Positions 27,925-44,837 of a stretch of 64,000 nucleotides of DNA are shown in pieces. This stretch comes from Clostridiaceae bacterium (lineage in GTDB: Bacteria > Bacillota > Clostridia > Lachnospirales > Lachnospiraceae), in the NCBI GenBank assembly GCA_902362725.1, contig CABIXM010000016.1:867-64866 (forward strand). The letters run 5' to 3'. Under the pieces are notes generated by a model. The model made no database searches, was not told the DNA's origin, and worked only from the letters and a program-made list of their open reading frames with translations. Both the position numbers and the translations under genes were made by a program. Numbering within the stretch: position 1 is the stretch's first letter; the number at the start of each line of letters is the position of its first letter.

Positions 27925-29393
27925 ATATACAGGAAGCAAAAGAAGAAATCAAAAAGACAGTCCGGGCTTACACAGCCAGAACGGCGGCGGGAACCTTCCG
28001 GATTCCGGTGCCAAGACAGCGGCCGGTGCTGCTGATTGGCCCGCCGGGTATCGGCAAGACCGCCATCATGGAGCAGATTGCCGGGGAATGCGGCGTCGGC
28101 CTGGTGTCTTACACCATGACCCACCATACCCGTCAGAGCGCCATCGGCCTGCCGGTATTGACAGAAAAGCAGTTTGCGGGAAAAGCGTATACCGTGACTT
28201 CTTATACCATGAGTGAAATCATTGCGTCGGTCTATGAGCAGATAGAAAAAACCGGCTGCAGGGACGGCATTTTATTCCTGGACGAGATCAACTGTGTGTC
28301 AGAGACGTTGATGCCGGCCATGCTGCAGTTCCTCCAGTATAAGACCTTCGGAAGCCATGCGCTACCCGAGGGCTGGGTCATCGTGGCGGCCGGTAATCCG
28401 CCTGCCTACAACCGTTCGGCGCGGGAATTCGATACGGTTACCCTGGATCGGGTACGCTATATGAAGGTGGAACCGGATTTCCCCATCTGGAAGCATTATG
28501 CGGTGGAGAGCGGCCTGCACCCGGCGGTATTGTCCTTCCTGGAGCTGCGCCCGGAACGCTTTTACGTGATGGAGCCTGGCGAGAAGGGCTTTGTGACCGG
28601 ACGGGCCTGGGAAGATTTGTCAGAGATACTACTGACCATGGAGGAACTGGAGCTTGGCGTGGAGGAGGCGCTGTTCGGTCAGTATCTTCAGGACGAGGAT
28701 ACGGCGACGGAATTTACCTTTTATTACCGTCTTTATGAAAAATGGAAGAAGGAGCTGAAGCCCGAGCAGATTCTGACCGGAGCAGCGGACGTGCCGACGA
28801 ACCTGCCGTCCCTGCCCTTTGACGAGCGCCTCTGCATCGTCTGGCTTTTGTTACAGCGTATTTACACCCTGGGCAGGGCGTACGAGGAGCAGCAGAAGCT
28901 GTCCGACAGTTTGCGCTTCTTTGCGGACGGACTGGGACAGGGAACCGCAGAGCAGCTGACAGCGCTTGTGGACGAGCGCCTGGACCGTCGGAGAAAGAGT
29001 CTGGCGGTCCGCAAAGAAAACGGTCTGTTGGCTGCAGGGGAAGAAGAACGGGAACAGCGGCTTTTCAACGTGATCCGGGACTGCAGGGAGGCAGTCAGGA
29101 CAGGCGGAGCTACGGACGCATTTTCGGAGAGAAGCGCACAGGAACAAAACCGGGCAGAGCGGCAGCGGAAAGAGCTGACCGCAGCCATGCAAAACGGCGC
29201 GGCCTTCGTCCGTGAAGCCTTCGGGAAAAAGCAGGAGCTGGTGATCTTTCTGACCGGCCTTCGGGAGCAGCCGGTCTGCAGCAGGGTATTGCAGGAGGAG
29301 CTGGGGGAGCTTTCCGGGGAGGCGGAAGACTTTCTGAATGCCGGAGGAAAAGAGGAGGAGCTTCGCCGGAAATTGACGGAGCAGCAGGCGTAA
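27921..29393 (+). CDS. MoxR-type AAA+ ATPase
   Basis: A 490-residue AAA+ ATPase. Walker A is GPPGIGKTA (about 36-44), Walker B is GILFLDEINC, and sensor 1 lies in VIVAAGNPPAYNRSAREFD. The C-terminal half is helical and charged with runs of Glu/Arg, suggesting a coiled coil. The family pairs with VWA-domain partners, and the gene overlaps the VWA gene upstream by four bases (ATGA). The protein is longer than minimal MoxR (about 320 residues) because of the extra C-terminal region. Confidence 0.9.
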   Translation: MNIQEAKEEIKKTVRAYTARTAAGTFRIPVPRQRPVLLIGPPGIGKTAIMEQIAGECGVGLVSYTMTHHTRQSAIGLPVLTEKQFAGKAYTVTSYTMSEIIASVYEQIEKTGCRDGILFLDEINCVSETLMPAMLQFLQYKTFGSHALPEGWVIVAAGNPPAYNRSAREFDTVTLDRVRYMKVEPDFPIWKHYAVESGLHPAVLSFLELRPERFYVMEPGEKGFVTGRAWEDLSEILLTMEELELGVEEALFGQYLQDEDTATEFTFYYRLYEKWKKELKPEQILTGAADVPTNLPSLPFDERLCIVWLLLQRIYTLGRAYEEQQKLSDSLRFFADGLGQGTAEQLTALVDERLDRRRKSLAVRKENGLLAAGEEEREQRLFNVIRDCREAVRTGGATDAFSERSAQEQNRAERQRKELTAAMQNGAAFVREAFGKKQELVIFLTGLREQPVCSRVLQEELGELSGEAEDFLNAGGKEEELRRKLTEQQA

Positions 29394-29432
29394 AAGCCCA
29401 AAAAAGTGGGAAAAACATCCCCTCACCCAGGA

Positions 29433-29461
29433 TTGTATTTTGAATATGCGTGTGCTATACT
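29433..29461 (+). promoter_or_regulatory. Promoter of the CsoR-type sensor gene
   Basis: TTGTAT (29433-29438), 17 bases, TATACT (29456-29461), about 25 bases before the start codon. Confidence 0.7.
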
Positions 29462-29485
29462 GAACAAAACCCAAGAAAGAGAACG

Positions 29486-29917
29486 ATGATCATGAAGGAA
29501 CAGATACATACCCATACACATATAGCGCCGGACGGCACCGTCTATGAGCATACGCACACAGATGGGGAACACAGTCATTTGGAACCGCACACACATGAGC
29601 ACAGCCATGAGCATAGTCATGAGGACGGTCACGCCCATGGTCACGGGCATACCCATACCCATCAGAACACCAAGGCCGTTCTGAACCGCCTGTCCAGGGC
29701 CATCGGCCACATGGAGTCCATCAAACGCATGGTGGAAGATGGCCGCGACTGCAGCGAAGTACTGGTTCAGCTTTCCGCCGTCAAAGCCGCCATCAACAAC
29801 ACGGCCAAAGTGATCCTGAAAGACCACATCGAGCACTGTATGGTAGACGCGGTGGAGAGCGGCGACCATGAAGCTATCGAAGAGCTGACGGCGGCCATTG
29901 ACCGGTTTATCAAATAA
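29486..29917 (+). CDS. CsoR/FrmR-family metal-sensing repressor with His-rich N-terminus
   Basis: A 143-residue protein. Residues about 62-143 form the helical CsoR/FrmR (DUF156) domain (AVLNRLSRAIGHMESIKRMVEDGRDC...). The copper-type ligand set C89, H114, C118 has the same 25- and 4-residue spacing as in CsoR. The first 60 residues are a histidine-rich tail with 19 His, mostly in HTH or HSH steps, which would bind several Ni, Co, Zn or Cu ions. The family represses metal-efflux genes, but no transporter is adjacent, so its targets must be elsewhere. ATG 29492 is an alternative start two codons later. Confidence 0.88.
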   Translation: MIMKEQIHTHTHIAPDGTVYEHTHTDGEHSHLEPHTHEHSHEHSHEDGHAHGHGHTHTHQNTKAVLNRLSRAIGHMESIKRMVEDGRDCSEVLVQLSAVKAAINNTAKVILKDHIEHCMVDAVESGDHEAIEELTAAIDRFIK

Positions 29918-29995
29918 ATAAAAAAATCTTCATAAAAATTTAAACGAAGCTACGGAAAAATGCGCTAAGATAACAGAAACAGGAGGCGCAAGAAT

Positions 29996-30853
29996 ATGAA
30001 GAGAAAAAAGATATTGCTATGCATATTGCTGACCGCAGCCCTGCTGGCCGGCTGCAATGCCAGAAACACAAATACGGATACAACAACACCTTCCCAGGGT
30101 ACCGAAGACACCGCAGATTCCGATACCCCGCTGATATCCGAGAACGAAAAATCCGGAAGCGTCACCTCGCTGGCCGTCAATATCCCGACCGAGATAAACG
30201 GAACAGAATTTACCATTACCACAGAGCAGGCCTACCCGGACGACGATGAGATTCTTGCAGTCAACGCTATATACGGGGATCAGACCCTGAAGCTGGATGA
30301 AAGTCTGGGGGTAAAGGGTATCTACGAGGTAGTTCAGAAGGACGGTATCTATATGCTGACAGAAACCGGCACCTTCAATGACTGGCGAGTGGTCTATCTG
30401 CTTCGGGCGGACGAGAAGGGAATCACTGAGACAGATGTGATAGATGGTTCCCTGGGTGATATGCCAAAGAATCCCGAGGACGGATTTTCTATTACCTCCA
30501 AGATAGACGTGCTGGGCAGCTATGGCGGTACCCGGACTTACACCATTGAAAATGGCCGCTTCACCACAGACAGCACGCTGTATGAATTCCGGGGCACTCC
30601 GGACGGATACAGGCCTGTGCTAACCGTAACAGGCGAGATCAGCTGCCGGATCGAAGGCGGCAGTACGGAGCTGAAGCCTGGCGATATCATCACCCCAACG
30701 GCATATTCGGAGGACGGAGTATTCTATTTTGAAAGGGAGGACGGCACTCCGGGCAGCTTCCAGGTGGATCTGGACGAAGAAGGAAATTACGCATATACAA
30801 TTGGCGGTGTAGATGAGAATGAGCTGTTTGAATCACTGCCCTATGCAGGTTAA
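29996..30853 (+). CDS. Lipoprotein of unknown function
   Basis: A 285-residue secreted lipoprotein: signal peptide with lipobox LLAGC (Cys about 20), a Thr/Ser/Asp-rich linker to about 55, and a beta-rich domain to the end. I do not recognise the family. Visible features are an acidic composition and a C-terminal half with alternating hydrophobic strands (GYRPVLTVTGEISCRIEGG, VFYFEREDGTPGSFQVDL). AGGAGG precedes the start. It sits between the metal sensor and the CRISPR locus and has its own terminator. Confidence 0.78.
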   Translation: MKRKKILLCILLTAALLAGCNARNTNTDTTTPSQGTEDTADSDTPLISENEKSGSVTSLAVNIPTEINGTEFTITTEQAYPDDDEILAVNAIYGDQTLKLDESLGVKGIYEVVQKDGIYMLTETGTFNDWRVVYLLRADEKGITETDVIDGSLGDMPKNPEDGFSITSKIDVLGSYGGTRTYTIENGRFTTDSTLYEFRGTPDGYRPVLTVTGEISCRIEGGSTELKPGDIITPTAYSEDGVFYFEREDGTPGSFQVDLDEEGNYAYTIGGVDENELFESLPYAG

Positions 30854-30864
30854 AGACAGGTGTG

Positions 30865-30903
30865 ACACCCGGTCGGAAGGAATCCTTCCGCCGGGTGTTT
30901 TTG
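30865..30903 (+). terminator. Strong terminator before the CRISPR-Cas locus
   Basis: ACACCCGG plus CGGAAGG (30865-30880) pairs with CCTTCCG plus CCGGGTGT (30884-30898), followed by a T-run. Confidence 0.9.
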
Positions 30904-31002
30904 CACGAATTTGAAAGGATTATTTTAGAAACTTAGATCTAGATGTCGGAGCGTTGGCTTGGTACAATATAAAAAATGACGATTCATATATGGGGAAATT
31001 CA

Positions 31003-33153
31003 ATGGATTATTATGCACATCTGACGGAGAGCAGGAAACAATCGGTAAAAGAACATTTACAGGGAACAGCAAAGCTTGCTGAAAAGTTTGCCGCAAAATT
31101 CGGCTCAGCAGACTGGGGATATTACTGCGGATTACTTCACGATATAGGAAAGTATTCATCAGAATTTCAGCGTAAAATTCAGGAGAATCCGGATCTGCGC
31201 GTGGATCACTCTACGGCAGGGGCGCAGGTAAGCAATGAATTGGGAGCATATTATAGCCTGATGAGCTATTGTATCGCCGGACACCATGCCGGACTTCCGG
31301 ATTGCGGGAGAAAAGGAGTATCCGCCAGCCTGTTGGGCAGACTTGAAAAAAAGGTTTGTGATTACAGCGAATATAAAAAAGAAATAGAGATACCGAAAAT
31401 CACTACGGAGCCATTTGCGCCGGAACAGGTGGCGGATTTTGATTTCTCATTGAGTACCTTTATCCGTATGCTATACTCCTGTCTGGTAGATGCAGATTTC
31501 CTTGATACGGAACAATTCATGAGCGGCGGGGTAGCTCAAAGAGATTCCGGGGAGAATATGGAAAATCTTTTACTCAGATTCAAAGAGCATATAGCTACAT
31601 GGCTTGAAGATTGGGACGATAGAACCATCAACGGCAGACGAAGTGAGATCCTTAGAAATTGTCTGGAGCAGGGTAAATCATGTAAGGGGTTATTTCAACT
31701 TACGGTGCCTACCGGTGGAGGAAAAACGATTTCTTCGATGGCATTTGCATTGCAGCATGCCGTGAAAAATCAGATGGATCGGATCATCTATGTCATTCCC
31801 TATACAAGTATTATTGAACAGAATGCACAGGTATTTCGTGAAATACTGGGGAATGAAAATGTATTGGAAAATCACAGCAATGTGGATTATGAAAGCTCAG
31901 AGGAATTTAAACCGATGCAGCTGGCGGCGGAAAACTGGGATAAACCGATAGTGGTGACTACAAATGTCCAGTTTTTTGAATCTCTGTATGCCAATAAATC
32001 ATCGAAATGCCGGAAGCTGCATAATATTGCAAACAGTGTGATTATATTTGATGAGGCACAGATGCTTCCGACAAATTATTTAAAGCCGTGTATTGCAATC
32101 ATGGAGGAATTGCTGCAGCGATATGGAGCCAGCATCGTATTGTGTACGGCGACACAGCCGGCGTTGCTTCCGTTTTTTCATGGAAAACAGACGGTCAGAG
32201 AATTATGTCCAAGAAGAGAGGAACAGTTTCAATTTTTTGAAAGAGTTACTTATCAGAATATGGGAACGGTAACGGAAGAGAATATGATAGAAAATCTGTG
32301 TCAGGAGGGACAGGCACTGTGTATTGTTAATACACGGAAAAGAGCGCAGAGACTTTATGAACAGCTGCGGGGCGAGGGGATCTATCATTTATCGACCAGC
32401 ATGTATCCGTTACACAGAAGGAGAGTCCTGAATGAAATCCGCAGCAGGATAAAGGAGAAGGATAAAAAATGTATTGTTATTTCTACAAGTCTGGTAGAGG
32501 CGGGAGTAGATTTGGATTTTAAGTCTGTATATCGGGAACTTGCCGGTGTGGATTCCATGATTCAGGCAGCAGGACGCTGTAATCGAAATGGGAACAGAGA
32601 TAAAAAAGAGAGTGTGGTCCATATATTTCAATGGGAGGACAAAGAACACATACCGGGACAACAGCAGCAGATCGATACGACAAAAAGTCTGTTGGCAGAG
32701 GGAAAAGATATTACAACCCTGGAGCATATTACGGAATATTTCCGCAGACTTTATCACATCAGGGGCGGGAGCCTGGATAAAAAAGATATTTTAGATAAAT
32801 TCAAAGACAGAGATTACCATTTTGCAACAGTCGCCAGGGAATTTAATCTGATTGAAGAAAATTCAGTTACCGTATATGTAAACAGAGAACCGGAGGCAGA
32901 GGAGCTTTTGCAGGAAATTCGGCAAAAGGGACTGACAAAGGGATTGATGAGAAAAGCCGGAAAATATTGCGTAAATGTCTATCGGGGAGACGGTCGGAAA
33001 GAAATGCTGTTTGAGAAGATGTACAGAGCGGGAATGCTGCGTCTGGTGGTGGACGGAGCACAGGATTTTTACGAGCTTACGGATAAAGAGCAGTATCTGG
33101 AAAATACAGGAATGAAACTGGACGTGGAACTGGGCGGAATGATACTGATCTGA
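31003..33153 (+). CDS. cas3: CRISPR-associated helicase-nuclease Cas3 (type I-C)
   Basis: A 716-residue effector that is recruited by target-bound Cascade and degrades DNA. The N-terminal HD nuclease domain has LLHDIGK (H46-D47), a DHSTAG segment and GHHAGLPD. The SF2 helicase follows: TGGGKT (237-242), DEAQ (350-353), CTATQPAL, and motif VI AAGRCNRNG. All catalytic motifs are intact, so interference should be possible. ATG 31003 follows GGGGAAA; ATG 30976 is an alternative without a clear site. It precedes the other cas genes, separated from cas5 by a 314-base gap that carries the crRNA-like element described below. Confidence 0.96.
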   Translation: MDYYAHLTESRKQSVKEHLQGTAKLAEKFAAKFGSADWGYYCGLLHDIGKYSSEFQRKIQENPDLRVDHSTAGAQVSNELGAYYSLMSYCIAGHHAGLPDCGRKGVSASLLGRLEKKVCDYSEYKKEIEIPKITTEPFAPEQVADFDFSLSTFIRMLYSCLVDADFLDTEQFMSGGVAQRDSGENMENLLLRFKEHIATWLEDWDDRTINGRRSEILRNCLEQGKSCKGLFQLTVPTGGGKTISSMAFALQHAVKNQMDRIIYVIPYTSIIEQNAQVFREILGNENVLENHSNVDYESSEEFKPMQLAAENWDKPIVVTTNVQFFESLYANKSSKCRKLHNIANSVIIFDEAQMLPTNYLKPCIAIMEELLQRYGASIVLCTATQPALLPFFHGKQTVRELCPRREEQFQFFERVTYQNMGTVTEENMIENLCQEGQALCIVNTRKRAQRLYEQLRGEGIYHLSTSMYPLHRRRVLNEIRSRIKEKDKKCIVISTSLVEAGVDLDFKSVYRELAGVDSMIQAAGRCNRNGNRDKKESVVHIFQWEDKEHIPGQQQQIDTTKSLLAEGKDITTLEHITEYFRRLYHIRGGSLDKKDILDKFKDRDYHFATVAREFNLIEENSVTVYVNREPEAEELLQEIRQKGLTKGLMRKAGKYCVNVYRGDGRKEMLFEKMYRAGMLRLVVDGAQDFYELTDKEQYLENTGMKLDVELGGMILI

Positions 33154-33171
33154 ATAAAGGAAGAATGGAAA

Positions 33172-33256
33172 CGGCGGTACACCATAAAAAAGTGTACCGC
33201 CGCTCTTTGAACATAACAAAAATTATAATTATTTCAATCCACAGGGATTCCCTGAC
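33172..33256 (-). ncRNA. Putative crRNA-like cas-regulating RNA (solitary degenerate repeat plus pseudo-spacer)
   Basis: On the minus strand, 33256-33231 reads as a shortened CRISPR repeat. It opens with GTC, has its own small hairpin CAGGG-AAT-CCCTG and ends with GTGGATTGAAAT, exactly the last 12 bases (including the 11-base crRNA handle) of the array repeat. The next bases (33230 downwards) would be the guide: AATTATAATTTTTGTTATGT. A strong hairpin (33172-33182 with 33192-33202) could form the 3' end. The guide matches 33309-33325 on the plus strand at 16 of 17 positions, next to TTC, upstream of the putative cas5 promoter. Layout and match suggest a guide that makes Cascade repress its own operon; transcription is inferred, not shown. 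Confidence 0.72.
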
Positions 33257-33262
33257 GTGTAT

Positions 33263-33292
33263 AGTGTACCACAGGTTTGGTAGTTTATTCAA
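33263..33292 (-). promoter_or_regulatory. Putative promoter of the crRNA-like RNA
   Basis: On the minus strand, TTGAAT (33292-33287), 18 bases, TACACT (33268-33263). The predicted transcription start, six or seven bases further on, falls at 33256-33257, the first base of the degenerate repeat. Confidence 0.55.
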
Positions 33293-33305
33293 GGCGATGT
33301 ATAAT

Positions 33306-33371
33306 TTCAATTATAATTTATGTTACAAAAAATAATTTACTATTGCAATTCTAAAATAAATGTGATACAGT
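33306..33371 (+). promoter_or_regulatory. Putative cas5-cas2 operon promoter and self-target site
   Basis: TTC at 33306-33308 is the expected type I-C PAM, followed at 33309 by the pseudo-protospacer matching the crRNA-like RNA. Directly after the 34-base footprint comes TTGCAA (33343-33348), 17 bases and TACAGT (33366-33371) with an extended TG, a plausible promoter whose start would be near 33378. Cascade bound at the site would cover the DNA up to the -35 box. An alternative -10 (TATAAT, 33312-33317) lies inside the target itself, but I see no good -35 for it. Confidence 0.6.
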
Positions 33372-33467
33372 CTAATTATCAGATAAATGCAGGACGAAAT
33401 ATAACGTTATCTCGCAGATACTGTAGATGAGAGTAATAGTTTAACGATGAAAGAAGGTGAAAATAAA

Positions 33468-34130
33468 ATGGGAATTGGAGTAAAGGTGCATGTATGGGGT
33501 GATTACGCATTGTTTTCAAGACCGGAGCTTAAGACAGAACGCTACAGCTATGACGTCATTACCCCCTCGGCGGCCCGTGGCATCCTGGACGCCGTATACT
33601 GGCATCCAGGTATGAGGTGGGTCATCGATAAAATCTATGTGAAAAATCCTGTTTGTTTTACAAGTGTACGGCGGAACGAAGTAAAAAGCAAAATTCTGGC
33701 AAGCAATGTGCTGCAGGCGTACAATGGCGCAGACAAGCCGTTGTATATCAGCGCCAGGGAGGACATTGTCCAGAGAGCAGCGCTGATGTTGTGTAATGTT
33801 TCCTATGTGATAGAGGCGCATTTTGAAATGACAGACAAGGCAAACGCGTCGGATAATCCGGGTAAATTTAAGGATATCATTATGCGGCGATTGCGAAGGG
33901 GAGAGTGCTTCCAGATGCCTTGTCTCGGATGCAGAGAATTTCCGGCGAATTTCGCTCTCTGCGAGGAAGAAGAGATCCATACCGCTTATGATGAAGTGCC
34001 GGAAAAAGATTTGGGACTTATGTTATACGATATGGATTACAGCGAACCGGAAAATATTCAGCCCATGTTTTTCCATGCGGTTATGCGTCATGGTGTGATA
34101 GATTTAAGAGAATGCGAGGTGTTACGATGA
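33468..34130 (+). CDS. cas5: CRISPR-associated protein Cas5c (type I-C)
   Basis: A 220-residue RAMP protein. In type I-C, Cas5 replaces Cas6: it cuts the pre-crRNA at the repeat hairpin and stays bound to the handle in Cascade. The family features are visible: an N-terminal ferredoxin-like strand (VKVHVWGDYALFSRPELK), YDVITPSAARGILDAVYW, and the glycine/Phe-rich CLGCREFPANF late in the chain. ATG 33468 follows AAGGTGA. It is the first gene of the downstream cas operon and overlaps cas8c by four bases. Confidence 0.95.
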   Translation: MGIGVKVHVWGDYALFSRPELKTERYSYDVITPSAARGILDAVYWHPGMRWVIDKIYVKNPVCFTSVRRNEVKSKILASNVLQAYNGADKPLYISAREDIVQRAALMLCNVSYVIEAHFEMTDKANASDNPGKFKDIIMRRLRRGECFQMPCLGCREFPANFALCEEEEIHTAYDEVPEKDLGLMLYDMDYSEPENIQPMFFHAVMRHGVIDLRECEVLR

Positions 34131-35857
34131 TCTTGCAGGCATTGGTAAAACAATATGAGAATCTGGAAAGACAGGGAAAAGTATCCGGGCTGGGCTGGTG
34201 TCAGGCCAAAGTGTCATACGAACTTGATTTGTCAAAAAATGGAGACGTTCTGGGCGTTACTTCGCGGAAGATAGAAGAAATGCGCGGTAAAAAGACCGTC
34301 TGGGCACCAGCATCTCTGATTGTCCCGGAAATGGTGACGCGCTCTTCTGGTGTGTCAGCTAATTTCCTGTGTGATAATTCCAAGTATATGCTGGGAATTG
34401 ATGTGCAGGGAACAAATCAGCGTGTTATTGATTGCTTTCAGGCCACAAGAGAAAAGCACCGGAGCGTGTTGAAAAACGCGCAGGGAGAAATAGCCCGCGC
34501 GATTTTGGCCTATTTTGAGAAGTGGGATCCGCAAAAAGCAGAACAGCATCCGGTTATTCGAGAAAACTGGGAAAAGTTGACAGAAGGCGGAAACCTGATT
34601 TTCAGCGTAGAAGGACAGGAGGCGCAGGAGGACGAGGAAATCCGGACGTGTTGGGAACAGTACCGGGAGCAAGACGATGGTGAACGTAAGGGGCTTTGTC
34701 TTGTTACAGGTAGGAAAACTGAGATTTCCCGAATCCATAAAGTGATCAAAGGAGTTCCGGGCGCGCAGTCCAGCGGAGCGGCATTGGTATCTTTTAATGC
34801 CCCGGCATTTGAGTCTTATGGAAAAGAACAGAGCTACAATGCACCGGTGGGGAAATATGCGGAATTTGCCTATACGACAGCATTAAATTATCTTTTGACA
34901 CAGAGAGACTATACCTTTTCTCTGGGCGACGCCATGGTGGTGTACTGGGCAGAAAGCGGAAAAGAAGAATATCAGAAGTGCTTTTTTGATATCCTGAGAC
35001 CGACCAAAGATAATCAAAAAAAATTAAAGGATATTTTTGATAGTTTAAAAGAAGATACGAAGGTATATCTGGAAAACGCAGAGATGGATCCGGAACAGAA
35101 ATTTTATATCCTGGCGTTGGCGCCCAATGCGGCTCGCTTATCGGTACGATTTTTTTACATGAATTCATTTGGGAAGATATTGCAGAATATTGCGGAACAT
35201 TATGAGCGGCTCAGCATTGTAAAACCGGCCTGGGCAGAGCAGGATTATTTGGGAATTCGCGATATGCTGAATGAGACCGTGAACCAGAAGTCGAAAGATA
35301 AAACACCCATTTCAAATATGTCATCGCTTGTATTGCAGGCGATTCTGTCAGGAAGCAGATATCCGGCAAGCCTTTATACAGATACTTTGATTCGCATACG
35401 GGCAGAGAATGGCAAGATTACATGGGGGAGAGCCGCTATTATCAAAGCATATCTGAATCGCAACTATGGGTGGAAGAAAGGAGAAAGATTTATGGGACTA
35501 AAGGAAGAATGCACGGATACAGCTTATGTATTAGGAAGATTATTTTCCCTTCTGGAAGCAATACAGAAAGAAGCAAATCCATCAATCACAACGACAATCC
35601 GGGATCGGTATTTTAATTCCGCCTGTGCAACACCTGCAAGCGTATTCCCGGTGTTGATCAAATTGAAAAACAGTCATATCAAGAAGCTGGAAAGAGATAA
35701 AGGGGGCGCAAAAATTTATTATGAAAAACAGCTGACAGATATCATGGGGAGACTGGAGGAATTTCCAAAACGGTTATCATTGGAGCAGCAGGGACAATTT
35801 ACGCTGGGTTACTATCATCAGCAGCAGAAAAGATATGAAAAAGGGGAGGAAAAATAA
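34127..35857 (+). CDS. cas8c: CRISPR-associated Cascade large subunit Cas8c/Csd1
   Basis: A 576-residue large subunit that recognises the PAM and the displaced strand in type I-C Cascade. The sequence follows the Csd1 pattern: LGWCQAKVSYELDL near the start, FLCDNSKYMLG at about 80, a CLVTGRK segment near 195, SFNAPAFESYGKEQ, and NRNYGWKKGERFMG in the C-terminal third. The length is usual (about 570-600). The stop-start overlap ATGA with cas5 and the immediate join to cas7 show a single translated unit. Confidence 0.95.
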   Translation: MILQALVKQYENLERQGKVSGLGWCQAKVSYELDLSKNGDVLGVTSRKIEEMRGKKTVWAPASLIVPEMVTRSSGVSANFLCDNSKYMLGIDVQGTNQRVIDCFQATREKHRSVLKNAQGEIARAILAYFEKWDPQKAEQHPVIRENWEKLTEGGNLIFSVEGQEAQEDEEIRTCWEQYREQDDGERKGLCLVTGRKTEISRIHKVIKGVPGAQSSGAALVSFNAPAFESYGKEQSYNAPVGKYAEFAYTTALNYLLTQRDYTFSLGDAMVVYWAESGKEEYQKCFFDILRPTKDNQKKLKDIFDSLKEDTKVYLENAEMDPEQKFYILALAPNAARLSVRFFYMNSFGKILQNIAEHYERLSIVKPAWAEQDYLGIRDMLNETVNQKSKDKTPISNMSSLVLQAILSGSRYPASLYTDTLIRIRAENGKITWGRAAIIKAYLNRNYGWKKGERFMGLKEECTDTAYVLGRLFSLLEAIQKEANPSITTTIRDRYFNSACATPASVFPVLIKLKNSHIKKLERDKGGAKIYYEKQLTDIMGRLEEFPKRLSLEQQGQFTLGYYHQQQKRYEKGEEK

Positions 35858-36769
35858 ATGAGTGAAGCGATTAAAAATAGATACGAGTTCGTGATATTAT
35901 TTGACGTGGAAAATGGAAATCCAAATGGCGACCCCGACGCAGGCAATATGCCCAGAATCGATCCGGAGAGTGGACTGGGACTGGTAACAGATGTTTGCCT
36001 GAAGCGCAAGATTCGCAATTATGTGGAAACGGTAAAAGAGGATGCGCAGGGATATAAAATTTACATCAAAGAGTCTGTACCTTTGAACCGCAGTGACAGA
36101 GAGGCCTGCGCAGATCTGGGAATCAGGGAAACAGAGGAAAAAAAGGTAACGGAAGAATTGAAGAAATTAAAGAAAGATGATCCGGACGCAGATCTTAAGC
36201 TGAAGGATTATATGTGCCGGAATTTCTATGACATTCGTACTTTTGGAGCCGTAATGACTACTTTTGTCAAAGCCTCTTTGAACTGTGGTCAGGTAAGAGG
36301 TCCTGTTCAGATTGGTTTCGCCCGCAGCGTTGATCCGATTATCGGTCAGGAGGTGACAATTACGAGAGTTGCTATCACTACTGAAAAAGATGCGGAAAAC
36401 AAAAATACAGAAATGGGCAGAAAGACGATCGTTCCTTATGGACTTTATCGCGCGGAGGGATATATTTCTGCAAATCTGGCGCGAAAAGTAACCGGCTTTT
36501 CGGAAGAAGATCTGGAACTGTTGTGGGAAGCAATTCTCAATATGTTTGAAATAGATCATTCTGCTGCAAGGGGAAATATGGCAGTACGGGAGTTGATTGT
36601 CTTTAAGCACAGTAAGGAATTGGGAGATTGTCCGGCGTACAAATTATTCGATGCGGTAGAAGTAAAGAGAAAGGAAGATGTGGAATACCCCAAAAAATAT
36701 CAGGATTATATCGTAACGGTTCACAAAGAACAGATTCCTGATTCCGTAGAAGTAAGAAGGATAAATTGA
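35858..36769 (+). CDS. cas7: CRISPR-associated Cascade backbone protein Cas7c/Csd2
   Basis: A 303-residue RAMP that polymerises along the crRNA to form the Cascade backbone. Typical Csd2 strings are present: FDVENGNPNGDPDAGNMPR at the N-terminus, DIRTFGAVM in the middle, RGPVQIGFARSVDPI, and YGLYRAEGYISANLARKVTGF. It begins at the base after the cas8c stop (TAA directly followed by ATG), with GAGGAAAA within the end of cas8c as ribosome binding site. Confidence 0.96.
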   Translation: MSEAIKNRYEFVILFDVENGNPNGDPDAGNMPRIDPESGLGLVTDVCLKRKIRNYVETVKEDAQGYKIYIKESVPLNRSDREACADLGIRETEEKKVTEELKKLKKDDPDADLKLKDYMCRNFYDIRTFGAVMTTFVKASLNCGQVRGPVQIGFARSVDPIIGQEVTITRVAITTEKDAENKNTEMGRKTIVPYGLYRAEGYISANLARKVTGFSEEDLELLWEAILNMFEIDHSAARGNMAVRELIVFKHSKELGDCPAYKLFDAVEVKRKEDVEYPKKYQDYIVTVHKEQIPDSVEVRRIN

Positions 36770-37431
36770 TGGAATACACAGAAGACGATTATCTTATGAT
36801 ATCCGGAATTCAGCATTTCAGGTTCTGTAAAAGGCAGTGGGCGTTGATTCACATAGAACAGCAGTGGGCAGAGAATGAACACACAGTTATTGGTGAATTG
36901 ATGCATAAAAAAGTACACGATCCCTATCTTACAGAAAAACGAAAAGATATCATCATTGCGCGGGCTATGCCGGTGGCGTCCAGAAAAATGGGCGTCACTG
37001 GTGAATGCGACGTAGTAGAGTTTCACCGATGTGAGGAGGGAATTCGCCTGTATGGACATCGAGGCAACTTTTCTGTTTATCCGATAGAATACAAAAAAGG
37101 AAAGCCTAAAATTACGGAAGAAGACAGATTGCAGCTGACCGCACAGGCAATGTGCCTGGAGGAAATGCTTTCCACGCATATTTCAGAGGGGGCTTTGTTC
37201 TACGGGGAAACAAGACGGCGTGAACCTGTGAAAATAACGGAAGAGCTCCGCAATGAAGTAAAAGAAATGTTTCAGGAGATGCATCAATATTATAAGCGAC
37301 AGTATACGCCGAAGGTAAAACCGGGCAAGAAATGTACAGCATGCTCGTTGAAAGATGTCTGCCTTCCAAAACTTGGAAAAAACGGTTCTGTGAAAATGTA
37401 TCTGGACCAGGCGCTGGAGGAAGATGTATGA
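36769..37431 (+). CDS. cas4: CRISPR adaptation nuclease Cas4
   Basis: A 220-residue RecB-type nuclease that trims prespacers and selects those with the proper PAM for Cas1-Cas2. The iron-sulfur ligands are C20 (FRFCKRQW) and C189, C192, C198 (CTACSLKDVC). The nuclease core is shown by GECDVVEFHR and YPIEYKKGKP (Asp/Glu and Lys of the PD-ExK site). ATG 36769 overlaps the cas7 stop (TGATG). It is intact even though the cas1 gene that follows is interrupted. Confidence 0.94.
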   Translation: MEYTEDDYLMISGIQHFRFCKRQWALIHIEQQWAENEHTVIGELMHKKVHDPYLTEKRKDIIIARAMPVASRKMGVTGECDVVEFHRCEEGIRLYGHRGNFSVYPIEYKKGKPKITEEDRLQLTAQAMCLEEMLSTHISEGALFYGETRRREPVKITEELRNEVKEMFQEMHQYYKRQYTPKVKPGKKCTACSLKDVCLPKLGKNGSVKMYLDQALEEDV

Positions 37432-38459
37432 AAAAATTATTGAACACGTTATATGTTACTTCCGAAAACAGTTATCTGTCATTAGACGGTGAGAATATTG
37501 TTATTTATGAGAAGGAAAGCGAACTGGGAAGAGTCCCGTTGCATAATCTGGAAGGAATTGTATCCTTTGGTTATCGTGGAACCAGTCCGGCGCTTATGGG
37601 AGCCTGCGCAGAAAAAAATATTTCCCTGTGCTATATGACTCCTCAGGGGAAATTCCTGGCGCGCGTTACAGGAAAAACACGGGGAAATGTAGTTCTGCGT
37701 AAGCAGCAGTACGAGAGCAGTAACGACGATACAATCGCGCTGGAGATTGCTAAGAGTTGCATTCTGGGAAAGGTACATAATGCGCGCTGGGTTCTGGAGC
37801 GGGCTATTCGGGATCACGCTATGCAGATAGATGCGGAGCGTGTAAAAAAGGCGTCTGAACTGTTAAAAAATTCTATTGCGATGGTTCGGAGCAGTACATC
37901 AAAGGACGAACTCAGAGGATATGAAGGAGAAGCGGCCAGTATTTACTTTGGAGTATTTGACGAACTGATCCTGCAGCAGAAAAAGGATTTTACGTTTCAG
38001 GGCAGGAATAGAAGACCGCCTATGGATAAGATGAATGCAATGCTGTCATTTGTTTATACATTGCTGACCAATATGGAGACGTCTGCACTGGAAAGTGTAG
38101 GGCTGGATCCCTGTGTCGGTTACCTTCATACAGAACGACCCGGCAGAGTTTCGTTAGCACTGGATATGATGGAAGAACTCAGGGCAGTTCTGGCAGATCG
38201 GTTTGTGTTGTCGTTAGTGAATAAGAAAATGATTACAGGCAAAAATTTTACATAGAAGGAAAACGGTGCGGTACTTCTTGATGACAATGGACGCAGACTG
38301 ATATTGACGGAATGGCAGAACAGAAAAAAGGAGTTCATAACGCATCCGTTTTTACAGGAAAAGGTGGAGTGGGGAATGGTTCCTTATGTTCAGGCAATGT
38401 TGCTGGCACGTTTTTTGCGTGGCGATTTGGATGGCTATCCGGTTTTTCTGTGGAAATGA
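37428..38459 (+). pseudogene. cas1: cas1 (integrase of CRISPR adaptation) with an in-frame amber codon
   Basis: The reading frame from ATG 37428 (overlapping the cas4 stop) continues for 343 codons to TGA 38457-38459, the normal Cas1 length for type I-C. However, codon 276 is TAG (38253-38255), in [22 protein letters not shown]. After it the frame is fully conserved in character: [20 protein letters not shown] and [20 protein letters not shown], ending FLWK. The catalytic residues lie before the stop (Glu in RGYEGEAASIYF, His in VGYLHTERPG, then Asp in LALDMMEEL). A 275-residue truncated protein, a nonfunctional gene, readthrough or a sequencing error are all possible. Confidence 0.9.
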
Positions 38460-38467
38460 GGTGTGGA

Positions 38468-38758
38468 ATGTTAGTATTAATTACGTATGATGTGAATACC
38501 GAAAATGCGGCCGGAAAGACAAGGCTGCGGAAAGTCGCAAAGCAGTGTGTCAATTATGGCAGAAGAGTGCAAAATTCGGTATTTGAGTGCCTCCTGGATA
38601 ATGCGCAGAGTATTACCTTGAAAGCAATCCTTGCGGATATTATTGATCCAGAGAAGGATAGTCTTCGCATTTATTATTTAGGAAACAAATATCAAACAAA
38701 GATAGAACATATTGGAGTAGACAGAGGGATTGCTGCAGATCAGACGCTTATTTTATAA
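38468..38758 (+). CDS. cas2: CRISPR adaptation protein Cas2
   Basis: A 96-residue ferredoxin-fold protein that bridges two Cas1 dimers during spacer integration. It begins MLVLITYDV with the conserved metal-binding Asp, and includes GRRVQNSVFECLLD and DSLRIYYLGNKY, as normal for type I-C. An in-frame ATG at 38456 overlaps the cas1 stop, but the standard N-terminus and GAGGTG placement favour ATG 38468. It is the last cas gene, 165 bases before the array. Confidence 0.95.
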   Translation: MLVLITYDVNTENAAGKTRLRKVAKQCVNYGRRVQNSVFECLLDNAQSITLKAILADIIDPEKDSLRIYYLGNKYQTKIEHIGVDRGIAADQTLIL

Positions 38759-38923
38759 GTTCGGTGCGAAAGCCAATGACACATAAATGGACTGAGGGAT
38801 TCGCACCTGAAAATAAGTCATGGAATGCTTAAATATGTTCTGTAAAATCGAAATGTTTAATGATTTTAAAAGTTTTAAACAATTTTTGCTGAGAATTAGA
38901 TAAGATTTTAGGTAAAAATTGCT
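38759..38923 (+). promoter_or_regulatory. CRISPR leader
   Basis: This AT-rich 165-base gap between cas2 and the first repeat is the expected leader. It starts with a hairpin (GGTGCGAA near 38762 facing TTCGCACC near 38801). A/T-rich sequence follows up to repeat 1. The most recent spacers should be at this end, which agrees with degenerate repeats being at the far end. Confidence 0.75.
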
Positions 38924-41632
38924 GTCGCTCCCCTCGCGGGGGGCGTGGATTGAAATATTTGCTTTCGGTGTTGTTAATTCGAAAGGATTGGTCGCTCCCC
39001 TCGCGGGGGGCGTGGATTGAAATCACTAACCTCAACAGGATACGTGCGAAGAGAGGTCGTCGCTCCCCTCGCGGGGGGCGTGGATTGAAATCAAAAAGTA
39101 ATTGATGTGGACTGCGTGCCAATTTAGTCGCTCCCCTCGCGGGGGGCGTGGATTGAAATCTGTCGGAGCTGGGCTATAACAACACGAATTACAGTCGCTC
39201 CCCTCGCGGGGGGCGTGGATTGAAATAATGCAAGTACGAATGACGATGGAAGCGACGTGTGTCGCTCCCCTCGCGGGGGGCGTGGATTGAAATCGCGAAT
39301 ATGAGGACACGCTGACAACGCCTGTGAAGTCGCTCCCCTCGCGGGGGGCGTGGATTGAAATGCTAACTCCAAGTATTGATTCTGCAAGACGTTCACCGTC
39401 GCTCCCCTCGCGGGGGGCGTGGATTGAAATCACCGCAAAAACCGGGAGGGGTGGCTTGTGACTAGTCGCTCCCCTCGCGGGGGGCGTGGATTGAAATTAC
39501 GGCACAATCGAACAGTTTCGGGGAAAAGTTAGTCGCTCCCCTCGCGGGGGGCGTGGATTGAAATTCTTACTCAATGTAAACTCCCCCATTCATAGCGTGT
39601 CGCTCCCCTCGCGGGGGGCGTGGATTGAAATGTGCCAAAATGTATTATAATACTGGCCAAGCGCATGTCGCTCCCCTCGCGGGGGGCGTGGATTGAAATT
39701 TGATATCGAAACTGCGAGCGCATGGGACAATATGGTCGCTCCCCTCGCGGGGGGCGTGGATTGAAATTAAATCATTGAACAACGATTTCGGGTGGAACGT
39801 GTCGCTCCCCTCGCGGGGGGGCGTGGATTGAAATTCAAACTCGTTGCCATAATACATTACCTCTCTTTGTCGCTCCCCTCGCGGGGGGCGTGGATTGAAA
39901 TTTCCGAAACTCTCTGGAGCGACTTGCAGGGGATGGTCGCTCCCCTCGCGGGGGGCATGGATTGAAATCTATTGTAATGTGCGGGTTATTGTTCTGGTAC
40001 AGTCGCTCCCCTCGCGGGGGGCGTGGATTGAAATCGGATCTCGTTTGTGTCCTGCAAGTGTACCCTCGTCGCTCCCCTCGCGGGGGGCGTGGATTGAAAT
40101 TGTACAGTCACAACGTTGCGCAGGTCGGTTATAGTCGCTCCCCTCGCGGGGGGCGTGGATTGAAATAATGATGGAACAACTACGCGGCACACGCCGTTTA
40201 CGTCGCTTCCCTCGCGGGGGGCGTGGATTGAAATTGTCAGAGTTGGGCTATAACAACACGAATTACAAGTCGCTCCCCTCGCGGGGGGCGTGGATTGAAA
40301 TTCTTCCGGATCCTCATCCGGATAACGGCGATCCAGTCGCTCCCCTCGCGGGGGGCGTGGATTGAAATAGAAAAGTCATCGTGAATCCGTCCGCAAAAGT
40401 TGTCGCTCCCCTCGCGGGGGGCGTGGATTGAAATGAGCGCTTTTATAACGACGTCCAGGATCTGAATGTCGCTCCCCTCGCGGGGGGCGTGGATTGAAAT
40501 AATCCTCGCAGTGCACCGCGGATCGCACCCTCCGTCGCTCCCCTCGCGGGAGCGTGGATTGAAATCTCTGTGTTGACGGACAACCCTAATTCTGCGCAGT
40601 CGCTCCCCTCGCGGGAGCGTGGATTGAAATAATCCTCGCAGTGCACCGCGGATCGCACCCTCCAGTCGCTCCCCTCGCGGGAGCGTGGATTGAAATGTTT
40701 CGGACTGGAAGGAACTGAAAATGTAACAGCCGTCGCTCCCCTCGCGGGAGCGTGGATTGAAATTTCCACAACTGCGAGAAATGCCGACAACATTTCGTCG
40801 CTCCCCTCGCGGGAGCGTGGATTGAAATGGTCTATAAATGTGTATTGTTTCGCCGTCATTCAAAGTCGCTCCCCTCGCGGGAGCGTGGATTGAAATTTCA
40901 GCGAAAGATCTATGTGCTGAAATCCCACAAGGTCGCTCCCCTCGCGGGAGCGTGGATTGAAATTTCCAGCCTCATTTTTTCGTCCGTCCACCACTCCGTC
41001 GCTCCCCTCGCGGGAGCGTGGATTGAAATAGGACTGCAACAGGCTTCTGCGCCGGGTGGATCTTCGTCGCTCCCCTCGCGGGAGCGTGGATTGAAATCCG
41101 AACATACAGGATATCTCCCGGCTTGTACGGTGTCGCTCCCCTCGCGGGAGCGTGGATTGAAATGTGGAAGCTCTTATTGAGCGTGAAAGCCGATGGAAAG
41201 TCGCTCCCCTCGCGGGAGCGCGGATTGAAATAACCGGGACCGATTTATCCTGAACAGCATTACGGTGGTCGCTCCCCTCGCGGGAGCGTGGATTGAAATA
41301 TATAGGATTTCTCTTGTATCCGTATCGCTCATGTCGCTCCCCTCGCGGGAGCGTGGATTGAAATTGGAGGATTCAAATGAGTAAAATATATATTACGGCA
41401 GTCGCTCCCCTCGCGGGAGCGTGGATTGAAATCAGTTAGAGGGTTTGTATAGCGTTCCACAAACTGTCGCTCCCCTCACGGGAGCGTGGATTGAAATACG
41501 ATGTTATCTATTCTTTTGGCAATGTGGACTGGTGTCGCTCCCCTCGCAGGGGCGTGGATTGAAATGTTATATTATATAATTCAGAAAACGTTGAAGCGAA
41601 GTCGCTCCCCTTGCGGGAGCGAGGATTGGAAT
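38924..41632 (+). CRISPR. Type I-C CRISPR array: 41 repeats, 40 spacers
   Basis: Every repeat starts GTCGCTCCCCTCGCG and ends GTGGATTGAAAT, apart from single substitutions. Repeats 1-24 (38924-40500) are the 33-base form with a GGGGGGCG middle; repeats 25-41 (40534-41632) are the 32-base form with GGGAGCG. Variants: repeat 14 has one extra G, repeat 16 a G-to-A, repeat 20 a C-to-T, repeat 35 a T-to-C, and repeats 39-41 decay progressively, the last ending GAGGATTGGAAT. Spacers are 33-36 bases. Spacers 24 (40501) and 26 (40631) are identical apart from one end base. Spacers 4 (39160) and 20 (40235) are variants of one target. No spacer was seen to match elsewhere in this window. Confidence 0.99.
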
Positions 41633-41780
41633 TTGTAATATACCACATTATATTTGTCGAACAAAAATATTTGACGATGATGTAAAATTATGCTAGTCTG
41701 AATTTATCATCATTATCTGAAAAAGTTCAGGGAGTGAATCACTCCAAATATTCCAGAGATTGTGAGCCCACAAAAGATAG

Positions 41781-41817
41781 CGACGCCTTTACTTTGGCAT
41801 AAGAATCAAATATAATA
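41781..41817 (+). promoter_or_regulatory. Promoter cassette, copy 1
   Basis: CGACGCCTTTACTTT starts a unit with TTTACT (41788-41793), 17 bases and TATAAT (41811-41816). The same cassette recurs at 42315-42350, 534 bases further on. The rest of 41633-41853 holds no gene I can support. Confidence 0.7.
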
Positions 41818-41853
41818 AAGGAAGGAGAACAGGCAGAGCTGATAGATGGACAA

Positions 41854-42306
41854 ATGTACATGTTGGCGACACCCAGTACAAGACACCAGAGATTATCGCA
41901 TTTCTTGCTTAGAAAGATAGATTCCTATATTGAATCGAAAAAGGGGAAGTGCGAGGTGTTTTATGCACCGTTTGGTGTGTTCCTGAAAAATGAAAAATGG
42001 GGAGAGGATTTTGTAGAACCAGATCTTATGGTAATATGCGATCCGAATAAGGTAGACGAAAAAGGCTGTCACGGAGCACCCGATTGGGTGATAGAGATAG
42101 TCTCTCTTTCCAGCAGAATGAGGGATTACCTGCAAAAAGCAAACCTGTACATGAACAATGGTGTCCGGGAATACTGGATTGTGGATCCGGTGCGCGAGGT
42201 GACCGTAGTTTATAAGCGCGAGGAAGAAGGATTCCCGGTAATATACAAATTCGGCGAGCCGGTAAAGGCAGGGATATACGAGGACCTTGAGATTACGATA
42301 GAGTAG
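41854..42306 (+). CDS. Uma2-family (DUF820) putative endonuclease, N-terminally truncated
   Basis: A 150-residue protein with the PD-ExK-like Uma2 fold: VEPDLMVICDPNKV supplies the Asp, PDWVIEIVS the Glu, and REYWIVDP the conserved C-terminal strand. Uma2 proteins are widely scattered and often multicopy; their function is poorly known. Codons before ATG 41854 still read in frame as GEQAELIDGQ, the conserved segment that normally follows about 20 more residues, but a stop lies at 41800. The usual N-terminus is therefore missing, and no ribosome binding site fits ATG 41854 well. Initiation at CTG 41839 behind GGAG is conceivable. It lies between two promoter cassettes. Confidence 0.72.
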   Translation: MYMLATPSTRHQRLSHFLLRKIDSYIESKKGKCEVFYAPFGVFLKNEKWGEDFVEPDLMVICDPNKVDEKGCHGAPDWVIEIVSLSSRMRDYLQKANLYMNNGVREYWIVDPVREVTVVYKREEEGFPVIYKFGEPVKAGIYEDLEITIE

Positions 42307-42314
42307 GAGAGATT

Positions 42315-42350
42315 CGACGCCTTTACTTTCACTCAGAGATCAAATATAAT
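42315..42350 (+). promoter_or_regulatory. Promoter cassette, copy 2 (upstream of rpiR-type gene)
   Basis: CGACGCCTTTACTTT, TTTACT (42322-42327), 17 bases and TATAAT (42345-42350), nearly the same as 41781-41817. It lies 36 bases before the RpiR-family start. Confidence 0.7.
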
Positions 42351-42385
42351 GGAGAAAGAAACGGAAGCGTGCAGGGGGGATACAT

Positions 42386-43135
42386 GTGGAGAAGTTTATC
42401 GGTGAGTATGAAAATTTAACAGACAGTGAAAGAAATGTTTTTACGTATGTATTTCAGAACCAGGAAAAAGTTTCTGTTATGAAGATAAATGATCTGGCTG
42501 AAGAGACGGCGGTTTCAAAAACAGTTGTGATTAATATGTGTCAGAAATTGGGGTTTGATGGCTTTGGAGATCTGAAATATTATTTAAAAGGCAGGCAGGA
42601 AGAACAGAGCCAAAGAACCTATGAGGATATACAATTTCAGTGTCTTGATCAGGTAAAGAAGACGATGGCAGTGGTAGATCGGCAGTGTCTGAAAAGGGTG
42701 GCGTCTGCTATTATCAAGACAAAAACAGTATATATTGTTGCCAGAGGAACAAGTAAAGCTGCGGCAGATTATCTGGAACATTTACTTTTACTGATAGGAA
42801 TTAAGTGTATTAATTTACGGGATTACAATCTGAATTCTACAGTTATCAAAAAAATTAATATGAACGAATCTGTAATTTTAATTTCTTTATCAGGCGAAAC
42901 AAGAAAAATAGTCGAAGTGGCAAGAATTGCAAAAGCCAGATCTGCAACGGTAATTGCCCTGACTGGCTTTTTTTCCAGTACGATTGGACGATTGGCGGAT
43001 TATACCTTATATTGTTCCGCAGAAAATGCAGATACCAGAGAAAATGATATTAATTCAAGGCTGGGAATGTTTGTCGTGATTGATATGCTGGTAACAATTG
43101 TAAAGGAAATGTACGAAGAAAATATATTTAAATGA
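42386..43135 (+). CDS. RpiR/MurR-family transcriptional regulator
   Basis: A 249-residue regulator: N-terminal helix-turn-helix (about 1-75, with KINDLAEETAVSKTVVINMCQKLGFDGF) and C-terminal SIS sugar-phosphate-binding domain (about 100-240, VYIVARGTSKAAADYLEHLL and VILISLSGETRKIVEVARIAK). The start is GTG 42386 behind a GGGGGG tract; an ATG two bases upstream is out of frame. It heads an operon-like run with an alpha-glucoside PTS and 6-phospho-alpha-glucosidase, so it probably responds to a phosphorylated disaccharide. Confidence 0.93.
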   Translation: MEKFIGEYENLTDSERNVFTYVFQNQEKVSVMKINDLAEETAVSKTVVINMCQKLGFDGFGDLKYYLKGRQEEQSQRTYEDIQFQCLDQVKKTMAVVDRQCLKRVASAIIKTKTVYIVARGTSKAAADYLEHLLLLIGIKCINLRDYNLNSTVIKKINMNESVILISLSGETRKIVEVARIAKARSATVIALTGFFSSTIGRLADYTLYCSAENADTRENDINSRLGMFVVIDMLVTIVKEMYEENIFK

Positions 43136-43278
43136 AAATGGCAGAAATGACATAAGTCAGAAGTTGTGACATTAGTATTGAAAAACAATCTATGTCACAG
43201 CTTTTTTATTGTATGGCAGGAAATATCTTTTTATAATTAGTTCATGGTTAACCAAAAAATAAGTATGGGAGAAGAAGA

Positions 43279-44835: not shown

Positions 44836-44837
44836 AA

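Follow-up and report, generated by a model that had tools for sequence, protein, structure and literature searches.

Why does the gap between cas3 and cas5c of a type I-C CRISPR-Cas locus hold a single repeat-like element, and what would an RNA made from it do? The locus, complete with cas genes and CRISPR array, lies inside the 64-kb stretch of DNA analysed here (the window), and a first-pass annotation had read the element as a regulatory guide of type I-C. Comparison of related loci supports that reading at the level of sequence. The element is very probably a type I-C CreR, that is, a self-regulating guide whose RNA would lead Cascade to repress cas5-cas2. The parts of the locus are listed below, with the basis for each in brackets.

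30976..33153, plus strand: cas3 (TIGR01587, TIGR01596)
33169..33205, minus strand: 15-pair hairpin closing the predicted guide RNA (predicted fold)
33206..33230, minus strand: guide, of which nt 1-17 (33230-33214) are the part matching the promoter site (sequence)
33231..33256, minus strand: solitary repeat-like element made up of GTC, a 5-bp hairpin and a 12-nt handle (sequence; handle uniqueness; relatives)
33254-33242, minus strand: repeat hairpin, CAGGG-AAT-CCCTG (sequence)
33242-33231, minus strand: handle, GTGGATTGAAAT (sequence)
33263..33292, minus strand: predicted guide-RNA promoter, TTGAAT-N18-TACACT, with TG before the -10 (sequence; recurrence in relatives)
33306..33308, plus strand: TTC, the PAM beside the target (sequence; PAM-blind search in relatives)
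33309..33325, plus strand: target, corresponding to guide nt 1-11 and 13-17 (sequence)
33343..33371, plus strand: predicted promoter of the cas5-cas2 operon, TTGCAA-N17-TACAGT (sequence; layout in relatives)
33468..34130, plus strand (ORF from 33447): cas5c, first gene of the presumed guide-controlled operon (TIGR01876)
34112..38758, plus strand: cas8c, cas7, cas4, cas1 and cas2, in that order at 34112-35857, 35858-36769, 36766-37431, 37332-38255 and 38312-38758 (ORF calls and profile matches)
38924..41632, plus strand: CRISPR array of 41 repeats in two length forms, most copies terminating in GTGGATTGAAAT

Cas5c likely starts at ATG 33468 rather than at ATG 33447, the former being favoured because the closest homologues are 220 aa long. 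These homologues are 97-99% identical, and one at 98% is labelled Laedolimicola sp., a genus of the Lachnospiraceae. The array has a history of its own. At about 40531 the repeat switches from a 33-nt form (GGGGGGCG) to a 32-nt form (GGGAGCG), and a repeat-spacer unit is duplicated (40483-40533 and 40613-40663, 98% identity over 51 nt), each copy carrying a different repeat form. Two spacers, 39161-39193 and 40235-40267, share 94% identity across 33 nt, which would fit two samplings of related invaders. An Rfam search of 29000-46000 returned no family at the gathering score.

Read along the minus strand, the gap presents in order a promoter-like TTGAAT-N18-TACACT, the 26-nt repeat-like element, the guide and the hairpin. 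The repeat is degenerate except for its handle; its GTC, its hairpin and the exact handle all lie within 33256-33231, where the first-pass annotation had placed them. Outside the array, GTGGATTGAAAT occurs at a single site in the 64-kb window, the solitary element itself. When one mismatch is allowed the window holds 41 matches, 40 of them in the array, against a mean of 0.47 across 100 shuffles. The locus thus has the extra-array repeat with processing hairpin and 5' handle by which a CreR is recognised. No second repeat was seen by eye 3' of the guide, its place being occupied by the long hairpin. As folded by prediction, this hairpin (33169..33205) would end the guide RNA, and it may also terminate cas3 transcription on the opposite strand.

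The usual PAM of type I-C systems is TTC, and positions 6 and 12, which fall at the 6-nt kinks, are unread by type I complexes. Matches between guide and DNA were therefore scored as identities at 15 positions of nt 1-17, with 6 and 12 left out. The window guide attains 15/15 (nt 1-5, 7-11 and 13-17) at a TTC-flanked site adjoining the cas promoter; the full protospacer of about 35 bp would extend to 33343. In 20,000 dinucleotide shuffles of 33257-33446, with TTC required, a score of 15/15 was reached in none, at least 13 in one and at least 12 in 40, and the next-best TTC-flanked site for this guide anywhere in the window scores 11/15. The earlier claim that plus-strand 33309-33325 corresponds to guide positions 1-11 and 13-17 is confirmed, and with it the partial complementarity to a PAM-flanked cas-promoter site that characterises CreR.

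If the guide and its site belong together, they should change together in relatives. A Cas5c alignment scan gave 275 relatives, of which the best 80 of 275 were kept; their Cas5c is 65-81% identical, the nearest being at 80-81%. Elements were selected on the handle alone, blind to the match: on the minus strand, no more than about 1450 nt upstream of cas5, allowing up to 2 mismatches to GTGGATTGAAA and requiring one of three fixed 8-mers. By this rule 40 of the 80 loci (best 80 of 275) carry an element, giving 41 with the window. A TTC-flanked partial match accompanies 40 of these 41, in 39 cases within 300 nt (counting sites on both strands and tolerating a single 1-nt bulge). Without gaps, 27 of the 41 score at least 12 at a plus-strand TTC site; six more (L005, L008, L022, L027, L037 and L039) have a plus-strand site in which one 1-nt bulge is kept after nt 9-10; and seven have their TTC site on the opposite strand (L043, L050, L052, L055, L056, L071 and L046). 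The site of L046, which lies at cas5, was found only after the range was extended from 300 to 620 nt, and the handle-like element of L079 has no paired site under any of these match classes. The bulge and opposite-strand classes were defined after inspection of the data, so that the ungapped plus-strand figures and the new loci described below are the cleaner tests.

Shuffled guides (200 for each, 8,200 trials) reached a score of at least 12 in 0.22% of trials and at least 13 in 0.06%. Summed over the guides, the score in their own gaps was 464, whereas 10,000 permutations of guides over gaps averaged 315 (sd 9.4, maximum 357). For 27 of 41 guides no other gap outscored the own one, and for 22 the own gap was strictly highest; the figure stays at 27 because relatives share similar seeds. 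When guides and sites were swapped among the 42 ungapped pairs, 3.9% of the combinations reached 12, and none scored above 14. Co-variation of guide and target in related I-C gaps, named at the outset as a check on the regulatory reading, is thus seen: 40 of 41 elements have their site, and own pairs beat permuted ones.

Three further pairs (L019, L036 and L061, the last with its element upstream of a long ORF presumed to be cas3) came from a joint search for handle and match in loci outside the first 27; having been selected on the match, they are no independent tests. Whole-genome searches supplied 59 more loci with Cas5c (29 + 30), 42 of which do not duplicate the first 80 and a few of which are incomplete at contig ends. 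A handle within 1.5 kb is present in eight of the 42 and absent from 34. A paired site occurs in six of these eight (L092, L096, L136, L139, L151 and L156; shuffle p 0.001-0.002), whereas L147 and L152, each with 2 handle mismatches, have none. Because L136, L139, L151 and L156 derive from a class-wide sample, the element reaches past the closest relatives. In all there are 49 paired elements (40 + 3 + 6 new) with 43 different 10-nt seeds, and the guide-target match is kept in related loci (40/41, and 6/8 in the new loci) as it is for CreR.

The element is not universal. By the rules used, none was found in 37 of the 80 loci (best 80 of 275); several of the contigs stop near cas5, and in some element-less loci cas5 follows the preceding long ORF (presumed cas3) without a gap. 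In L060 a plus-strand copy of GTGGATTGAAAT stands 37 nt before cas5, in the orientation opposite to that of the other elements, and this handle has no paired site by the rules used. Comparison of the gap DNA with 392 genomes gave short, weak matches in 22 genomes, and those loci were not used.

The pattern of the matches bears the marks of recognition by Cascade. Across the 42 ungapped pairs, nt 1-9 match in 42, 42, 42, 42, 42, 13, 41, 38 and 40 cases, and nt 10-17 in 42, 41, 6, 34, 40, 36, 34 and 27. Mismatches are thus concentrated at nt 6 (13/42 match) and nt 12 (6/42 match), while nt 1-5 match in 42/42; over nt 18-36 there are 4 to 13 matches per position (27 plus-strand pairs). When sites were sought without regard to the PAM, the best site scored at least 13 for 29 of 41 elements and all 29 are preceded by TTC, for which the background is 2.35%; where the best score was below 13, TTC precedes 6 of 12. 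The TTC at 33306-33308, proposed earlier as the PAM of the window target, accordingly stands. In the haloarchaeal I-B creA, changes at nt 6 or 12 are described as harmless and the other ten of nt 1-12 as required (PMC8501985). These results decide against a relic repeat with a chance match. Such a relic would account for the degeneracy outside the handle and for the lone unmatched handles of L079, L147 and L152, but the shuffles, the permutations and the PAM-blind search are all contrary to it, and it was rejected as extremely improbable.

The layout of promoters indicates what the guide would act upon. The TTGCAA 33343/TACAGT 33366 promoter of the first-pass annotation is present, with boxes at 33343-33348 and 33366-33371 and a TG at 33363-33364, and its position relative to the protospacer, +35/+58, is identical to that in L014, L016 and L024. 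A second promoter-like pair, TTGGTA-N17-TATAAT (33277-33305, 10/12 consensus), ends at the PAM, and automatic promoter scoring chose this pair for the window over the downstream TTGCAA/TACAGT, a point that counts against the CreR reading. In 22 of 27 plus-target loci the -35 of the best-scoring promoter lies at +21 to +36 from protospacer nt 1, which is inside or beside the protospacer of about 35 bp; the window is among the five outside this range because the scoring took its upstream TTGGTA/TATAAT pair. Of the 11 opposite-strand loci examined, 9 have their best -10 within the protospacer, L136 and L139 being the exceptions and L092 having been left out; the promoter of L071, which has an opposite-strand site, scores poorly. 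As predicted from these positions, plus-strand sites abut the -35 and opposite-strand sites usually cover the -10, and either placement would put Cascade on or against the same promoter.

The guide has a predicted promoter of its own. In the window TTGAAT occupies 33292-33287 and TACACT 33268-33263 of the minus strand, with an expected start at about 33256, which bears out the minus-strand TTGAAT-N18-TACACT promoter proposed earlier. Counting the window, 20 of the 27 plus-target loci have the end of the guide's best -10 at a distance of 31-37 nt ahead of the guide, which places the RNA start near the repeat; of the remainder, five have it at another distance and two are without a promoter. Four loci (L016, L019, L031 and L036) have two TTC-flanked sites per guide, each scoring 13-14/15 and 23-27 nt apart. 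These twin sites lie upstream of cas5 or of a gene pair containing DUF3990 (see below), with the first site near the guide's own promoter, and transcription of the guide might here be under its own control as well.

A minus-strand RNA beside cas5, such as is predicted here, could in principle be an ordinary antisense or sense RNA that acts on cas mRNA independently of Cascade. The plus-class sites, however, lie upstream of the conserved promoter, guide and site there have the same sense, and the matched strand varies by locus; the mismatches at nt 6 and 12 and the TTC flank are, moreover, marks of Cascade. Antisense action is disfavoured by the upstream plus-strand targets and the varying strand, and an RNA of either sense independent of Cascade is considered highly improbable.

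The repeat itself appears suited to processing. Of the 49 paired elements, 42 have a stem of at least 4 bp beside the handle (shuffles 28%), its 3' arm taking 18 different forms, and a stem of at least 10 pairs follows the guide on its 3' side in 42 of 49 (shuffles 10%). Cas5d is reported to cut the repeat at the base of its hairpin, so that 11 nt remain as the 5' handle (PMC3890593), and its minimal substrate is given as a 3-bp stem with a tetraloop (PMC7064716). The window hairpin has 5 bp and a 3-nt loop in place of the tetraloop, which counts against the CreR reading. Among 33 loci with a readable array, the element's 12-nt handle is identical to the handle of its own array in 13; the differences are mostly of single bases. 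Strict co-variation of element handle with array handle was on this count rejected.

A solitary repeat that Cas5c could bind might instead be a decoy that mimics the array repeat and sequesters Cas5c or Cascade, in the manner of the phage Racr RNAs; solitary type I-C repeats do serve as RNA anti-CRISPRs, as described for RacrIC1 (PMC10651486). The element here belongs to the cas locus itself, and the 17 nt that follow its repeat remain aligned with a promoter site next to TTC, something a decoy would not require, so that sequestration is regarded as very unlikely.

The preferred reading is that of a CreR, for which the following course is proposed. A minus-strand RNA would run from about 33256 to the hairpin at 33205-33169; Cas5c would recognise the repeat hairpin and cut it to leave an 11-nt 5' handle; and the processed guide would assemble with Cas8c and Cas7 and bind the promoter site through about 17 nt. 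The bound complex would block RNA polymerase, presumably with no cutting by Cas3 because pairing stops at about nt 17. Array crRNAs would compete with the guide RNA for the same proteins, with the result that the operon would open when Cascade is scarce or blocked. For CreR, competition by array crRNAs and relief of repression by anti-CRISPRs are described in PMC12737573. Control by the guide need not extend to the window cas3, which is located upstream of the element.

In relatives the presumed regulated unit may be larger. A DUF3990 gene (PF13151) and a second gene precede cas5 in 26 of the 80 loci (best 80 of 275), as in this example:

L014:8101-8989: DUF3990 gene and partner, inside a type I-C cas operon

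The pair matches the PADLOC candidate pair PDC-M10A/M10B, and DUF3990 is placed within the ADP-ribosyltransferase clan (PMC7955679). The element is directly upstream of the pair in 19 of the 26; in L019 and L036 it lies 2-3 kb further off, with other DNA between; L007 and L018 are cut off near the element site; and in L009, L032 and L033 the pair is present and an element was not found. The window has no DUF3990 pair and no gene between target and cas5c. The element's position before cas5 in the first-pass annotation consequently holds for the window and has to be widened for relatives, since 19 of 80 loci (best 80 of 275) have the DUF3990 pair directly downstream. In these 19 loci the guide would act on the pair together with the cas genes, silencing both.

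This arrangement could be the original one, the element being antitoxin-like in origin (CreA/CrePA type) with the silencing of the DUF3990 pair as its older task, and the window copy being a derived form that has lost the pair and tunes cas only. Its place directly before the pair in those 19 of 80 loci, with two more distant, would agree with such an origin, as would the partial pairs that persist in L002, L021 and L023 and the kinship of DUF3990 with ADP-ribosyltransferases and of the pair with PDC-M10A/M10B. The full pair is nevertheless missing from 21 of 42 paired loci (among the best 80 of 275), from the window and, to judge by position near cas5, from several loci of the wider sample, and the toxin is a putative one. 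Such an origin, which seems rather unlikely, would also alter the cargo and not the mechanism.

Starting again from the CreR reading, a wider scheme can be put forward tentatively, as possible though doubtful. The element would be an old clostridial I-C guide for self-silencing, cut to its mature form by Cas5c, whose own operon it turns off; its site would have moved across the promoter, flank to flank, with the promoter itself retained as target; and in about a quarter of the sampled loci it would also hold down an ADP-ribosyltransferase-like DUF3990 pair, as a combined CreR and CrePA alarm. If this is true, an anti-CRISPR that blocks Cascade would, through a single promoter, both increase the output of Cas proteins and set a toxin free. 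The DUF3990 pair would thereby be tied to Cascade control, in a compact system that, as type I-C, is without Cas6. The loci provide concrete sites at which to ask whether anti-CRISPRs de-repress type I-C operons, and the 43 seeds that keep the 1-5/7-11/13-17 match amount to a natural mutational scan of the pairing that would repress without cutting.

How do these elements compare with known systems? CreR autorepression is named for I-B, I-E and V-A in PMC13131331, and its scope is given as 'Type I and Type V-A' in PMC12737573. Within the literature searched, as far as the available text of the papers extends, no description of a type I-C CreR was recognised; an entry in the primary CreR tables is possible. 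The standalone-repeat elements of Shmakov et al. 2023 are reportedly predicted regulatory guides near cas genes, mostly of type I, and they possibly include these I-C loci. That work is cited in PMC10910872.

The CreA of CreTA, from I-B haloarchaea, has in common with the window guide a TTC-flanked site and a seed of nt 1-5 and 7-11 with nt 6 and 12 free, and in H. hispanica a one-repeat creA is ended by a terminator (PMC8501985). The target of CreA as described is the promoter of a toxin RNA, whereas that of the window guide is the cas promoter, with a match to nt 17. CrePA, in which a protein toxin is under Cascade control (PMC12737573), finds its counterpart in the predicted toxin-like gene behind the controlled promoter in 19 of 80 relatives (best 80 of 275). 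CreP is described as having a KilA-N domain (PMC12737573), in contrast to the DUF3990 gene and partner inside the cas operon of the relatives. Control of a toxin gene by the guide, which defines CreTA and CrePA, has no counterpart in the window, where the target is followed directly by cas5c. The Racr RNA anti-CRISPRs of phages likewise comprise a solitary type I-C repeat that Cas5 could bind (PMC10651486). As described they are borne on phages or plasmids away from cas genes, unlike the present element, which is chromosomal, lies between cas3 and cas5c of the cas locus and has a conserved guide match; two seed patterns searched in viral contigs gave no matches.

The closest resemblance is to CreR. 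From the accounts available, both have a repeat-like sequence and guide near cas genes, partial complementarity to a cas promoter and predicted repression by their own effector. The window system differs from the CreR systems described in being of type I-C, with Cas5c in place of Cas6 and Cas5c itself the first gene of the presumed repressed operon; in having one repeat followed by a long hairpin; in the two mirror placements of the site; and in the DUF3990 pair of some relatives. The kind is thus rated as already known, and what is rated as new is a one-repeat guide in a Cas6-less system, with mirror sites and, in relatives, a shared DUF3990 cargo.
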